Below are positions 1 through 45,460 of a stretch of DNA of 45,460 nt, in pieces. The stretch covers positions 1 to 45,460 of IMG/VR virus record IMGVR_UViG_3300020000_000028. One strand, written 5' to 3'. Under the pieces are notes generated by a model. It searched no databases and was not told where the DNA came from. It saw nothing but the letters and a program-made list of their open reading frames with translations. The DNA comes from a virus. Each line of letters starts with the position of its first letter. Within the stretch, counting starts at the first letter, position 1. Made by a program: the position numbers and the translations under genes.

Positions 1-141
1 CGGATGCCGATATTCGCGGGGCTAAAAATGGCCTTATGCGAATGGATAACATCCAACTAGATGAGCACGGTGCATTAACATTGTGTCGTGGAACTCGTTT
101 AGCTAATCCAGATACATTTCTTGGAGGAATTCATTCAATCT
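1..141. repeat. Terminal redundancy of the contig, left copy
   Basis: These bases repeat at 45320-45460 with an offset of 45319. Only two positions differ: base 7 (c here, a at 45326) and base 128 (a here, c at 45447). The overlap lies inside one continuous reading frame, so the contig closes into a circle of about 45,319 bp. The first mismatch changes Asp to Ala, the second is silent. This is most simply an assembly overlap of a circularly permuted or circular genome with minor strain variation. Confidence 0.93.
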
Positions 142-15242: not shown

Positions 15243-15448
15243 ATTTTCCTTTTGATTGCTTTATGACTCAATTCTGGCCAACGATGATCCAATGTAGTTG
15301 TACTAACCGCATATGAACGCATAGTAATACATTGACCAGCATTCATGCGCGGCCAATAATCTACAAGTTCAAATTCTTGCGCGCCGCAACAGCTGCAACG
15401 GAGTGTTAATAGCTCATTGTTAGACTTGCAATAAAGACATTTCTTCAT
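15239..15448 (-). CDS. Zinc-ribbon small protein
   Basis: The 69-residue protein has C4xxC7 and C18xxC21 in its first third, a typical zinc-ribbon pair, followed by an unrelated tail with an RRxRM-like basic end. Its ATG overlaps the stop of the malectin-like gene and its stop overlaps the next GTG. It may be a nucleic-acid or protein-interaction adaptor. No specific family is assigned. Confidence 0.7.
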   Translation of the reverse strand: MKKCLYCKSNNELLTLRCSCCGAQEFELVDYWPRMNAGQCITMRSYAVSTTTLDHRWPELSHKAIKRKM

Positions 15449-16020
15449 GGCTGCGGCGTGGCCTCCAATAGATCTTTACAAGCCTCTGATATCGCACAAC
15501 CAAATACTACATTGTCTTGCATGATTGGAACAATTTCAATCGCTGAAATAACTGCATTATACTTAGTCCACAGCAATGAAATAACAATCTTTCCATTGTT
15601 ATCGATTACAGGATATCCAATCTGGCAACCAATTAAAAGTCCACACTTCTTAAAGACATCGAAGTTTGACTTCATTAGATCATCATTGATCCAAATATTG
15701 AATGTCCTAGTGCCAATTTTGACCGCCTGGTTCTGTTCTATGAAATGTAACTTCACAGAATAAACTCCATGAATAACAGAAAATGTGAACGTGAGTAGGT
15801 TCGTAGTATAGCATAGGTTGCCGTATTGTGCTCCAACTATATCTGGCTTGTTTTGAACAACATACGCTGTAGAGCCTACGGGGCAGGCTAATGGGGTGTA
15901 CAGAACTCCATTTCCGTCATTTACTTCTGTTGTAGATCCTAATGCGTAGCGGTTAGTTTGTGCCAGGGAATTTAGCCCCGTCGATAATGTCAATGCTAGA
16001 ATCATCGTCAATTTTTTCAC
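15445..16020 (-). CDS. Exported malectin-like carbohydrate-binding protein
   Basis: I choose the GTG at 16020, which has GAGAGG seven bases upstream. It gives 191 residues that begin with a signal peptide: KK, a hydrophobic run (TMILALTLSTGLNSLA) and a likely cut before Gln. The mature part has the malectin pattern: YSVKLHFIEQ, then GTRTFNIWINDD, a FDVFKKCG stretch, V-I-D-N-N-G-K-I-V-I-S-L and ISAIEIVP. Malectin domains bind sugars. Four to six cysteines could form disulphides outside the cytoplasm. It sits among replication genes, so it is expressed early. It may act at the host surface or periplasm, for instance to mask receptors. That role is inference. Confidence 0.72.
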   Translation of the reverse strand: MKKLTMILALTLSTGLNSLAQTNRYALGSTTEVNDGNGVLYTPLACPVGSTAYVVQNKPDIVGAQYGNLCYTTNLLTFTFSVIHGVYSVKLHFIEQNQAVKIGTRTFNIWINDDLMKSNFDVFKKCGLLIGCQIGYPVIDNNGKIVISLLWTKYNAVISAIEIVPIMQDNVVFGCAISEACKDLLEATPQP

Positions 16021-16270
16021 GTTTTTTCCTCTCTCGAAATTGTCTAAAGTCATTAAGTACGCCCTTAACATGATCCGGTTGCAAGTTAAGGTTAATTGTC
16101 ATATATTCGGCAAGAAATGCGTTGACTATTGATATGTCTGCATTTTCAATAATTGAGAGGGCATGCTGAACTGCTTCCGCCGGAGTTAAAATGGATTTTT
16201 GTCCTTTTAATTCCAGAATTATGAATGGCTGAAATGTTTTTGACACGGCTGTTCTTAGTTTAATGTCCAT
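15953..16270 (-). CDS. Small helical protein, unknown (105 aa)
   Basis: The 105-residue protein starts at ATG 16270 just downstream of a strongly structured element. It ends inside the first codons of the malectin-like gene, overlapping by 68 bases in another frame. It contains helical, charged segments (TPAEAVQHALSIIENADISI, FRQFRERKKREKIDDDSS). The long overlap is unusual for this operon but the protein looks genuine. Not recognised. Confidence 0.6.
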   Translation of the reverse strand: MDIKLRTAVSKTFQPFIILELKGQKSILTPAEAVQHALSIIENADISIVNAFLAEYMTINLNLQPDHVKGVLNDFRQFRERKKREKIDDDSSIDIIDGAKFPGTN

Positions 16271-22995: not shown

Positions 22996-23210
22996 TTCCA
23001 TGTCTTGAACTCCCTTCCTTCGATATATTCACCATAGATAATAAAGGATCGGTTTTCAACAGCAAGAATGAAATGTATACGTTTTCCGCCATGTTGCCTT
23101 ACTTGAGCGTTTGCTGCTTCCATAACGCCTTCAAGTAATAATCCAGTGCTTTTGGCAGAAGAATCTTTTGGTAATTCAAATTCGATTGTAACTTTTCCTG
23201 TCATTTCCAT
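22992..23210 (-). CDS. Small protein, unknown (72 aa)
   Basis: The 72-residue protein starts MEMTGKVTIEFELPKDS and alternates strands and helices like a small ferredoxin-like or KOW-sized fold. It overlaps the HExxH gene by 10 bases. Not recognised. Confidence 0.62.
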   Translation of the reverse strand: MEMTGKVTIEFELPKDSSAKSTGLLLEGVMEAANAQVRQHGGKRIHFILAVENRSFIIYGEYIEGREFKTWK

Positions 23211-23557
23211 AACGGTATCCCCTTAATTGTTTTATATTCTTTAACTGCTAAGTAAGCGTAATTGTTTGCTTCCCGCTCTAACTCTTCATGTCCGTGTAAT
23301 GCATTTGTAGTGTATTGAATGTGATGTATCAATTCATGGACTAGAGTATCAATGAAGTCTAAAACCGTATCGTGCGCCGTACTAATTCGTACCGTCCTAA
23401 ATACTGGATGATACAATCCGAATGCGCCGAGCATTTCTTGTTGCGGCAATAATGAAATTGAATCCAAATCGACCAGCATCCATGGATATTGGGCAGTCAC
23501 AAATTGGAGCGCCGCTTCAAATCCAGGGCAGTTAATTCCATTACGGTTGATTGTCAT
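23201..23557 (-). CDS. HExxH zinc-metallopeptidase-like protein
   Basis: I prefer ATG 23557, with GAGG eight bases upstream, over GTG 23584. The 118-residue protein has H74ELIH78 followed by GHEELEREANNYAYLA, where Glu94 or Glu96 could be the third zinc ligand. This is the minimal SprT/ImmA-like gluzincin arrangement. It could cleave a host or phage protein early in infection, for example a repressor or antitoxin. Motif is direct; substrate is unknown. Confidence 0.68.
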   Translation of the reverse strand: MTINRNGINCPGFEAALQFVTAQYPWMLVDLDSISLLPQQEMLGAFGLYHPVFRTVRISTAHDTVLDFIDTLVHELIHHIQYTTNALHGHEELEREANNYAYLAVKEYKTIKGIPLWK

Positions 23558-23601
23558 GTTTTGTCCTCGATTGTTTAATTCCACTCATTCATTGCTCAGG
23601 C

Positions 23602-26544: not shown

Positions 26545-26686
26545 AAGTAAGATGATTGTATGTTGTAGTTCTATTCATAATAAAAAAAAATATAAGAATC
26601 AACAACATCGCCCACTGTACGCATGAAGGGGGGGGGGAGTGACAGGGACACTACGGAGTTTTTTCCTCCTAACTCGAACGCAATAG

Positions 26687-28007: not shown

Positions 28008-28292
28008 ATGGAACTTTCGAAATTACAACTCGCTACGCGCAAATTAAAACTAACTGAAAAAATTTTTTCTGACGAAGAGACAAAGAATTGTTATGAAGAA
28101 ATTTTTCCTGAGATTTTAATTGATGGTATTTATATCAACTACTTTACACTGCGTGACAATGACGTTAGGGAATTTTTTCAGGCGTGGCTTGAGAGAAAAG
28201 AGTTGGAAGGGCGCAAATTAGTTTTGCGTACAAAATTTTTTCGCGACGGGATGAAAGATCCTTACGGGTTCTATAGGGAGAATAAAAGATGA
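28008..28292 (+). CDS. Small protein ahead of the cytochrome gene, unknown (94 aa)
   Basis: The 94-residue protein has a strong AAGGAG site and overlaps the cytochrome gene by four bases. It is charged and mostly helical (LATRKLKLTEKIFSDEE, VREFFQAWLERKELEGRK). It opens the rightward middle module. I do not recognise it. Coupling implies co-production with the cytochrome. Confidence 0.68.
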   Translation: MELSKLQLATRKLKLTEKIFSDEETKNCYEEIFPEILIDGIYINYFTLRDNDVREFFQAWLERKELEGRKLVLRTKFFRDGMKDPYGFYRENKR

Positions 28293-28699
28293 AAACTAAA
28301 GAATTTTGGACAGGGCTTATTGGTGGAATTATTGGATGGGTATTTTTATATCCTTTAATTGCACAACAGGTGGAGAATCCTCTCTTACAACCGTCGGCCC
28401 GGCAGGTAATTGAGCGGCGCTGCACACGTTGTCATAGCGGGGAAAGGCCGCCGAATGGAATTAGGTTGGAGAATTTCTTAACTGTGAGTTTGTTTGTCTC
28501 TGCATACAATCCAGAGAAATCATGGATCATGCAGGCTATGACTGGAATGGGGAAAACACAAATGCCACCAATGTATCCTTTGGACTGGAAAGAAATCAAC
28601 GCCGTTAGACGTTGGATTATTGCTGGTGCAGATTCAAAATCCTATGAAGAAAGAATGCAGATGACTTCAATGGGTGGCCGCGAAGTGGATTCAAAATGA
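28289..28699 (+). CDS. Membrane-anchored mono-haem c-type cytochrome-like protein
   Basis: The 136-residue protein has an N-terminal membrane anchor (residues 7-25, WTGLIGGIIGWVFLYPLIA). A haem c attachment motif C45TRC48H49 follows. Downstream M92PPM95 provides the likely distal methionine, then PLDWKEINAVRRWIIAGA, the usual end of small c-type cytochrome domains of bacteria. The haem domain should face the periplasm, and attachment would need the host Ccm/Ccs machinery. It overlaps the preceding gene and lies near likely lysis genes. Phage-encoded c-cytochromes are rare. Possible roles are electron diversion or control of the proton motive force. Motifs are direct; the role is inferred. Confidence 0.8.
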   Translation: MKTKEFWTGLIGGIIGWVFLYPLIAQQVENPLLQPSARQVIERRCTRCHSGERPPNGIRLENFLTVSLFVSAYNPEKSWIMQAMTGMGKTQMPPMYPLDWKEINAVRRWIIAGADSKSYEERMQMTSMGGREVDSK

Positions 28700-29297: not shown

Positions 29298-29507
29298 ATG
29301 TCAGATGTTGTTAAAATTGCATTAATCGTTTCTGCGGCGCCGACATTAATTGCACTCGGAGGAATCTTAAAGATTCTTTACGATATTAAACAATATCACA
29401 AAGCAGTTAATGGAAAGTTAGATCAGTTCATTGAAGTTAGTGGAGATGCTCGGGAAGCAATGGGGCATCTTGCTGGCGTAGCAGATCAAAAGAAAAAACA
29501 AGACTAG
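29298..29507 (+). CDS. Single-pass membrane protein, holin-like candidate
   Basis: The 69-residue protein has one N-terminal hydrophobic helix (VVKIALIVSAAPTLIALGG) followed by a basic, then amphipathic, tail ending KKKQD. This is the size and topology of small accessory holins. It is followed closely by another small membrane protein, suggesting a lysis or envelope pair. No endolysin lies in the module. Confidence 0.6.
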   Translation: MSDVVKIALIVSAAPTLIALGGILKILYDIKQYHKAVNGKLDQFIEVSGDAREAMGHLAGVADQKKKQD

Positions 29508-29516
29508 GAGAAGATA

Positions 29517-29702
29517 ATGCCATTACTTAATGTTATTGTTATCTTGATTATTATTGGCGTTGGTCTATATCTTATTAATCGTTTTATTCCGATGGCTGAG
29601 CCTATTAAGACAATACTTAACGTATTTGTAATTGTCGTTGTTTGCCTCTGGCTCTTGAATCTTTTAGGTTTTCTTAGTAATGTTTGGGTAGGAAGACATT
29701 AA
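29517..29702 (+). CDS. Two-helix small membrane protein, holin-like
   Basis: The 61-residue protein has two hydrophobic helices (LLNVIVILIIIGVGLYLINR and TILNVFVIVVVCLWLLNLLG) joined by FIPMAEPIK. It resembles the widespread Thivi_2564-type small membrane proteins and class II holins. AGGAGAAG precedes it. The next gene starts inside its stop (TAATG). Confidence 0.65.
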   Translation: MPLLNVIVILIIIGVGLYLINRFIPMAEPIKTILNVFVIVVVCLWLLNLLGFLSNVWVGRH

Positions 29703-30401: not shown

Positions 30402-30432
30402 AGGGTGGTTTCACTGAGCGGTGGGCCACCCT
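30402..30432 (+). promoter_or_regulatory. Hairpin in the leader of the first late gene
   Basis: AGGGTGG and CCACCCT form a 7-bp stem 12 bases before the ATG at 30445. No Shine-Dalgarno sequence is seen between stem and start. Translation control or a transcript end is possible. Confidence 0.4.
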
Positions 30433-31397: not shown

Positions 31398-31873
31398 TGC
31401 AAGAACGAAAAAGATTAGTTTTTAAAAACACTCCTTGGGGTGACAGGATTCTCAATCCGTCAGTAATGGCTGATTGGAATTACGATGGTTGGCTTGCAGT
31501 TCTACTTGCGGAAGGGTGTAAACCGGAACCAGAACCATTTGTCCCAACTTTTATTACGGCGCGGGTCATTTCTGGTAACATGGGAGAAGTGAATCAGGAA
31601 ATTGGAAATGGTACGCAAGAAAACTTCATGGGGCATTTTGCTACTGAAGAGACGGCCAACGCGCTTGCAAAACGGTTCGGCGGAAAGGTAATTGAGATCA
31701 ATCCAAACTTTGAGGGTGGAGTTCGTACCGTGCCTGAAAAGGCTTACGGAATTCAAAAAGATGGAAAGATCTTTAATGCTGGAATATTAGCCTCGTACTT
31801 CATTCGGATGCCAGAGAATGAATTTCCTGGCGCGGCTGAGAAGGCTGTAAAGATTATTCTTGACGCAAAGTAA
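31397..31873 (+). CDS. Protein before the large terminase, unknown (158 aa)
   Basis: ATG 31397 follows AAAGGAG and shares bases with the preceding stop. The 158-residue protein has an N-terminal WGDRILNPSVMADWNYDGWL segment and an alpha/beta C-terminus (FGGKVIEINPNFEGGVRTVP). No known family. Confidence 0.65.
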   Translation: MQERKRLVFKNTPWGDRILNPSVMADWNYDGWLAVLLAEGCKPEPEPFVPTFITARVISGNMGEVNQEIGNGTQENFMGHFATEETANALAKRFGGKVIEINPNFEGGVRTVPEKAYGIQKDGKIFNAGILASYFIRMPENEFPGAAEKAVKIILDAK

Positions 31874-33366
31874 TGAATCTTGACATACGATTTCGCAATG
31901 AATTCCAAGAGAATTGCTTTTGGTTGAAAGAGCGAAATCAATGTGCATCGGGCGGGTTTAATAACGGTAAATCATATGTTTTATGCCAAAAAGCTGTTAC
32001 ACTCGCCCTCACATTTTCAAACTATAGATCAGTTATTGCTCGTCAAACTTTCAAAGATTTAAAAGCTACCACGCTTCAAACACTTCTTAAAGTATTACCT
32101 AAAGACGCCATTCGGACATTTGATACACAGTCTGGCGTTATCGTTCTTAAAAACAATTCAGTTTTTTATCTGATGCATTTAGATGCATTTGATGAACAAT
32201 CTCTGCGCGGCCTTGAAATTAACTCTGCGTTTATAGACCAGGCTGAAGAGATGATGGAAGCAATTTACATTGTCCTTGATGCTAGAATTGGACGATGGGA
32301 CAAAGCGGAAGTACCGAGTGAATATCTTGAGAAATTTCCAGAATGGCCAAAGAATGACTGGGGCATCCCGCGTGTTCCAAATTATATGTTCTTGGCCTGT
32401 AATCCTGATTCTCAGTTTCACTTTATTTATCAAAATTATCATCCAGAATCTGTCAATTTACAACCTGGGCATGTCATGCTTCAGGCGCCTACTGATGAAG
32501 CATTAGGTGATCCTGAAACAATGGCCCGAATGAAGGGCCGTGACGAAAGTTGGGTTAGGAAATACTTTAAGGGCGAATGGGGAATCAGTGAAGCACAAAT
32601 ACATTACGTACATCCATCCTCAATTCTTGACCCTAAAGATTGCGTTCAACTTTTTAAGGATATTGATCGACGTGGAAATAAGTATCGCGTATTGGATCAC
32701 GGTGAAACATCCCCGACTGCTTGCGGCTGGTACGCTGCCCTTAATTCCTGGCATATTGCTTATAGAGAGTATTATATGCCAAACACGGTTATTTCAAAAC
32801 ATCGGCAAAATATCTATGACTTAAGCGGCGACGAAATTTATGCAGGGAATTATGCTGATCCAGACATCTTTAATAAGCACTCACAAAAAGAGGGTGGATT
32901 TTGGACAGTTGCAAATGAATATGTTACCAAATCAATTGAAGGGCCGCCGCTGCCTTGGTCGCCGGCCGACAATAATGAGTTCGCTACTCGGAACCGTATT
33001 AACGAATGTCTTTCTCTCAATCCAAATGTCAGACATCCGATTACGGGGGAACTAAATGCTCCGAGATTTTATCTTATCAAAAGAACTAGAGAATATCCCA
33101 ACGGGATCTATCATGGGATTTCCGAGTTACAGTCCCAAAGAAGGAAGTTACTTACATCAATTAATGGAAAAGCAATCTATTCTGATGATCGTGAAGAGTC
33201 CATCACAGACCATTTTTATGACACAGAACGGTACTATTTCGCAATTCACGGATCAGGAAAATCGGTTGAGCCCATCCATATCCCAAGAAAATCCATGGCT
33301 TGGTATAATAGACTCTCGAAAAAACATGTAGGGGAAGTTTTAGCAGCATCGGACGAACGGAACTAA
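31873..33366 (+). CDS. terL: Terminase large subunit
   Basis: The 497-residue protein has the packaging ATPase and nuclease layout. Walker A is G27GFNNGKS34, Walker B is SAFIDQAEE near residue 121, and RVLDHGE near residue 273 begins the RNase H-like nuclease domain. It cuts and pumps concatemeric DNA through the portal. Its ATG overlaps the previous stop, and the small gene and the portal follow directly. Confidence 0.92.
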   Translation: MNLDIRFRNEFQENCFWLKERNQCASGGFNNGKSYVLCQKAVTLALTFSNYRSVIARQTFKDLKATTLQTLLKVLPKDAIRTFDTQSGVIVLKNNSVFYLMHLDAFDEQSLRGLEINSAFIDQAEEMMEAIYIVLDARIGRWDKAEVPSEYLEKFPEWPKNDWGIPRVPNYMFLACNPDSQFHFIYQNYHPESVNLQPGHVMLQAPTDEALGDPETMARMKGRDESWVRKYFKGEWGISEAQIHYVHPSSILDPKDCVQLFKDIDRRGNKYRVLDHGETSPTACGWYAALNSWHIAYREYYMPNTVISKHRQNIYDLSGDEIYAGNYADPDIFNKHSQKEGGFWTVANEYVTKSIEGPPLPWSPADNNEFATRNRINECLSLNPNVRHPITGELNAPRFYLIKRTREYPNGIYHGISELQSQRRKLLTSINGKAIYSDDREESITDHFYDTERYYFAIHGSGKSVEPIHIPRKSMAWYNRLSKKHVGEVLAASDERN

Positions 33367-45274: not shown

Positions 45275-45460
45275 TGAATACTCTAATCGTTAATGATTTT
45301 AAATCTGGATGGCGTCCATCGGATGACGATATTCGCGGGGCTAAAAATGGCCTTATGCGAATGGATAACATCCAACTAGATGAGCACGGTGCATTAACAT
45401 TGTGTCGTGGAACTCGTTTAGCTAATCCAGATACATTTCTTGGAGGCATTCATTCAATCT
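45274..45460 (+). CDS. N-terminal end of the large tail nozzle-like protein (continues at base 3)
   Basis: ATG 45274 overlaps the previous stop (TAATG). Reading on through the repeated end joins the frame at the window start exactly, adding 27 residues that begin NTLIVNDFKSGWRPSDDDIR. The frame runs off the window at 45460 only because the circle is cut here. Confidence 0.9.
   Translation, partial: MNTLIVNDFKSGWRPSDDDIRGAKNGLMRMDNIQLDEHGALTLCRGTRLANPDTFLGGIHSI
45320..45460. repeat. Terminal redundancy of the contig, right copy
   Basis: This is the same 141-base segment as 1-141 with two substitutions. See the left copy. Confidence 0.93.

Follow-up and report, generated by a model that had tools for sequence, protein, structure and literature searches.

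What does a tailed phage do with a c-type cytochrome gene of its own? The question is raised by P0001, a small open reading frame in IMG/VR virus record IMGVR_UViG_3300020000_000028, which was analyzed over its full 45,460 nucleotides (the window). Photosynthesis is a well-known case of phage control over host energy metabolism. An earlier description made from the DNA letters, the sequence-only reading, had presented the P0001 product as a membrane-anchored c-type cytochrome that is translated with its upstream neighbour and sits in a module with holin-like genes, where it could drain the proton motive force or time lysis. Our analysis supports the view of P0001 as a phage-encoded, exported c-type cytochrome with a single haem, and lends no support to a lysis module around it.

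The P0001 frame runs from an ATG to a TGA codon, and the frame, its CTRCH motif and its MPPM motif were all found as the sequence-only reading had described them (Table 1). CxxCH is unique to P0001 among the open frames of at least 60 residues in the 45,460-base window. H49 and M92 are separated by 43 residues, and M92 is likely the distal haem ligand, judging from its position and conservation. At the N-terminus, a positively charged MKTK stretch precedes a hydrophobic segment with a Kyte-Doolittle 19-residue mean of 1.69, and the orientation of the protein in the membrane would follow from the positive-inside rule. The hydrophobic stretch claimed earlier is thus present; it may be an anchor or a cleavable signal peptide, with LIA|QQ as the candidate cleavage site.

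Table 1. Coordinates of P0001, its sequence elements and selected genes of the window.
Feature	Position	Strand	Remarks
94-aa soluble ORF, first gene of the run	28008..28292	+	AGGAG ribosome site; stop overlaps the cytochrome start as ATGA
P0001, exported c-type cytochrome with one haem; predicted class I fold resembling PSCyt1 / Cytochrome_CBB3	28289..28699	+	136 aa
Hydrophobic export signal, residues 6-24	28304..28360	+	signal anchor or cleavable signal peptide
CTRCH haem c attachment site, residues 45-49 (C45, C48, proximal H49)	28421..28435	+	from sequence; invariant in 18/18 aligned cytochromes
MPPM, residues 92-95	28562..28573	+	M92 and P93 invariant in the alignment
C-terminal class I helix EINAVRRWIIAGA	28592..28630	+	W109 invariant in the alignment; AlphaFold2 with alignment
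69-aa single-span membrane protein	29298..29507	+	termed holin-like earlier; without family match
61-aa membrane protein, probably two spans	29517..29702	+	without holin family match
Terminase large subunit	31873..33366	+	used for finding related phages

Pfam searches with P0001 at E values up to 1 returned two families, both of c-type cytochromes: PF13442 (Cytochrome_CBB3) at E = 4.8e-4, with 20.6 to 21.2 bits against a curated cut-off of 27, and PSCyt1 (PF07635) at E = 6e-3, with a cut-off of 22 bits against which P0001 scored 17.6 and its bare domain 19.3. Cytochrome c6 PetJ is among the weak NCBIfam matches. A scan of genome contigs identified relatives of P0001 encoded at 21 bacterial loci in Planctomycetota, Acidobacteriota, Chloroflexota, Verrucomicrobiota and Pseudomonadota; its seed alignment held two hand-written consensus rows, for seeding only, and the matches were confirmed by tblastn against P0001. 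When P0001 was aligned with 17 of these bacterial cytochrome domains, which come from several phyla, no variation was seen at residues C45, C48, H49, M92, P93 and W109; of the 18 aligned members, 17 are matched by PSCyt1. A profile built from the 17 bacterial domains only gave P0001 62.4 bits (E = 5e-19 over the 306 ORFs of the window), a figure that is optimistic because the domains were chosen for similarity to P0001, so that Pfam is the unbiased test; the next-best ORF among the 306 reached 5.1 bits. When the alignment profile was compared with solved structures, it matched FoxE (E = 5e-19) as well as cytochromes c6, c-552 and CcoP. The homology search that had been proposed as a check aligns P0001 with bacterial cytochrome domains, and the Pfam families, the invariant ligand residues and the profile score together bear out the c-type cytochrome identity.

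We also modeled the structure of P0001. AlphaFold2 gave a poor model from the single sequence (pLDDT 48); with the alignment as input, pLDDT rose to about 79-94 over residues 31-110, and helices were predicted at residues 33-44 and 100-111. Structural matches of this model are nearly all c-type cytochromes. Individually they are weak, with Z values of 3-5.5 and Foldseek E values above 0.7, and the best cytochrome-sized match has a Z of about 4; because these values are low, it is the matches taken together, and no single one, that support the predicted fold. A fold search of BFVD produced no meaningful match for P0001. Structure prediction, another check suggested with the sequence-only reading, thus favors a cytochrome through the dominance of c-type cytochromes among the matches, and falls short in the single-sequence model and in the strength of each match.

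The sub-threshold Pfam scores and the poor single-sequence model would fit a CxxCH motif that binds zinc or is fortuitous, in an unrelated small membrane protein. However, the similarity to the bacterial domains covers residues 37-115 and so extends well beyond the motif. The best of 5000 shuffled versions of P0001 in which CxxCH was held fixed scored 21.2 bits against the bacteria-only profile, about a third of the 62 bits of the real sequence. M92, P93 and W109, all outside the motif, are invariant, and almost every structural match is a cytochrome. We consider a zinc-binding or chance motif very improbable.

The window derives from a tailed phage with a genome of about 45.3 kb, as seen from its genes for terminase, major head protein, an SU10-type adaptor, DNA polymerase, primase, helicase and exonuclease; no integrase was recognised in it. 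The first and last 141 bp of the window (1-141 and 45320-45460) are 98.6% identical, with two mismatches between them. Most probably, then, the record represents a complete genome that has terminal repeats or was assembled as a circle with a small error. A second IMG/VR contig, IMGVR_UViG_3300019996_000018, carries an identical cytochrome gene in the same gene order. Over the stretches compared, two mismatches separate the contigs, at 33323 and 33326; they lie within the terminase gene and leave the cytochrome gene unchanged. The second contig is the same virus. This twin makes a chance assembly join unlikely, and since it is the same virus and no difference falls inside the gene, purifying selection on the cytochrome is not measurable from the pair. 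P0001 is a host-type metabolic gene within a bona fide phage genome, which is what defines an auxiliary metabolic gene. Matches of the terminase, head protein and polymerase were remote and mixed and pointed to no particular host.

Several other features of the window were recorded. A 208-aa protein encoded at 15445-16071 (minus strand), near the replication genes, contains a malectin domain (PF11721, E = 4.5e-9, above the cut-off), an unusual carbohydrate-binding domain for a phage. The 127-aa ORF at 23201-23584 (minus strand) is matched weakly by phrog_87, a phage metallo-protease family in PHROGs (E = 1.5e-3). An intergenic run of ten G residues at 26628-26637 lies between divergent gene blocks. 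A GC-rich hairpin, AGGGTGG...CCACCCT, occupies 30402-30432 (plus strand) just before the 30445 gene and has no clear T run; the minimum free energy of this region is -20.8 kcal/mol (z = -2.1).

Relatives of P0001 are rare among phages in the collections searched. None was found by tblastn in the 50,697 phage records of INPHARED or by a search of PHROGs, and three further motif-seeded IMG/VR scans, of limited sensitivity, added nothing new: one recovered the twin contig only, and the two run with bacterial alignments gave no match. The statement that few phages carry c-cytochromes is a fair one on these data, though a viral soxD has been reported (PMC8190135). Two related phages with a 50% identical terminase (L006 and L008) also encode relatives of the 26902 and 30804 genes, but the interval is filled by different small genes and lacks a cytochrome; in a closer, 84% relative (L004), the sequence stops short of the cytochrome region upstream. 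Upstream of the terminase, the cytochrome gene thus lies among small genes that vary between phages. Absent from related phages and from the collections searched, it has, in this lineage, the distribution of a rare cargo gene.

On the bacterial side, a first scan of genome contigs gave no relative, and samples of Acidobacteriota and Chloroflexota (strict thresholds), Pseudomonadota and Verrucomicrobiota contained no close relative, the two Verrucomicrobiota matches near 6e-7 included. The nearest homologues are PSCyt1-like domains of at most 38% identity in Planctomycetota, Acidobacteriota, Chloroflexota and Verrucomicrobiota. The P0001 branch, at 2.02 changes per column, is the longest end branch among the 28 rows of the tree, which left P0001 unplaced; such a long, unplaced branch gives no sign of recent transfer from a sampled bacterium. 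It is also the pattern of a protein that has changed its role, and together with the lack of a close bacterial relative and the frequency of such cargo genes in phages it would fit a cytochrome fold kept for a non-respiratory use in the envelope, such as haem or redox sensing, a block to superinfection, or a decoy inhibitor of a respiratory complex. P0001 nevertheless retains every haem-ligand position and the C-terminal helix, and we regard a non-respiratory use as unlikely.

The immediate neighbourhood bears on the proposed connection with lysis. The overlap behind the proposed co-translation with the upstream gene is present: the start codon of P0001 overlaps the stop of the 94-aa ORF, purine-rich ribosome sites precede both frames, and the site before the cytochrome start is GGGAG. 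Scans for promoters and terminators gave chance-level results only. The cytochrome shares its strand and a closely spaced run of genes with the membrane proteins at 29298 and 29517, and this arrangement invites the idea that it acts with them on the proton motive force, altering or draining it, and so helps to time lysis. However, neither membrane protein matches a holin family in Pfam or PHROGs, and no endolysin or spanin was recognised among the ORFs scanned, many of whose phage proteins are without assignment. Two genes for soluble proteins (28734 and 29083) separate the cytochrome from the first membrane protein, and in related phages (L005/L006) a homologue of the 29517 product is encoded directly after the terminase gene, without a cytochrome. 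Moreover, an electron carrier with one haem moves no protons by itself. What remains for the lysis reading is the proximity of small membrane proteins; the module as first proposed finds no backing in these genes, which leaves proton motive force drain and lysis timing as speculation. We judge a lysis-linked cytochrome very improbable.

We therefore favor, with a probability of roughly 0.7, a cargo (auxiliary) gene for a stand-alone, exported monohaem class I electron carrier that is matured by the host and acts in the periplasm. The N-terminal hydrophobic segment would carry P0001 across the host inner membrane, where the cytochrome c maturation system of the host would join haem to C45 and C48, with H49 and M92, both present, as the presumed axial ligands. 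The His/Met haem could then shuttle single electrons between membrane or periplasmic redox partners of the host; one conceivable route leads from a quinol-oxidising complex to a terminal oxidase. Among the genes of the window, none was recognised as encoding a redox partner, a maturation factor or another respiratory protein. The most likely use of such a carrier would be to maintain or divert host respiration in the infected cell, and the gene may, going by gene order, be expressed with the late genes. A more far-reaching proposal, which we offer tentatively and consider doubtful as a whole, is that this phage lineage has domesticated an exported, stand-alone cytochrome c with one haem and no close cellular counterpart, which joins the respiratory chain of the host and redirects its electrons at a late stage of infection.

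Known cytochromes resemble P0001 to different degrees. PSCyt1 (PF07635) domains of Planctomycetota, Verrucomicrobiota, Acidobacteriota and other phyla show the motif order of P0001, namely CxxCH, G-x-R/D-L, P-x-x-S, MPP and R-x-WI-x-x-GA; these relatives mostly lie within open frames of about 250-1160 codons, whereas P0001 is a single-domain protein. In the same size class as P0001 are small single-domain c-type cytochromes of Anaerolineae (L027, L032 and L036), which likewise combine an N-terminal extension with one cytochrome domain in frames of 141-192 codons. They differ in having about 26-27% identity to P0001, MPK in place of its MPP, and an origin in bacterial genome assemblies. Cytochrome c6 and CcoP-type proteins (PF13442) have the class I fold predicted for P0001 and the same His/Met ligand positions, but sequence identity is low and structural agreement limited (Z 3-4), and P0001 has an N-terminal export signal or anchor and lies outside any oxidase operon.

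Among viruses, sequences of cbb3 oxidase subunit I of viral origin have been described in ocean viromes (PMC3474794). The literature searched contained no description of a phage with a stand-alone monohaem cytochrome c, which is weak evidence given its partial journal coverage. If the favored reading is correct, an intact, stand-alone cytochrome c of respiratory type would allow a phage to supply an electron carrier to the host envelope, and phage replication would be tied to host haem and to the host cytochrome maturation machinery. A known parallel is viral soxD, a c-type cytochrome gene that phages carry as an auxiliary metabolic gene; the two viral copies reported are without one or both cytochrome (haem) motifs (PMC8190135). 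SoxD partners SoxC in sulfane oxidation; in contrast, P0001 stands alone and its haem site is intact.
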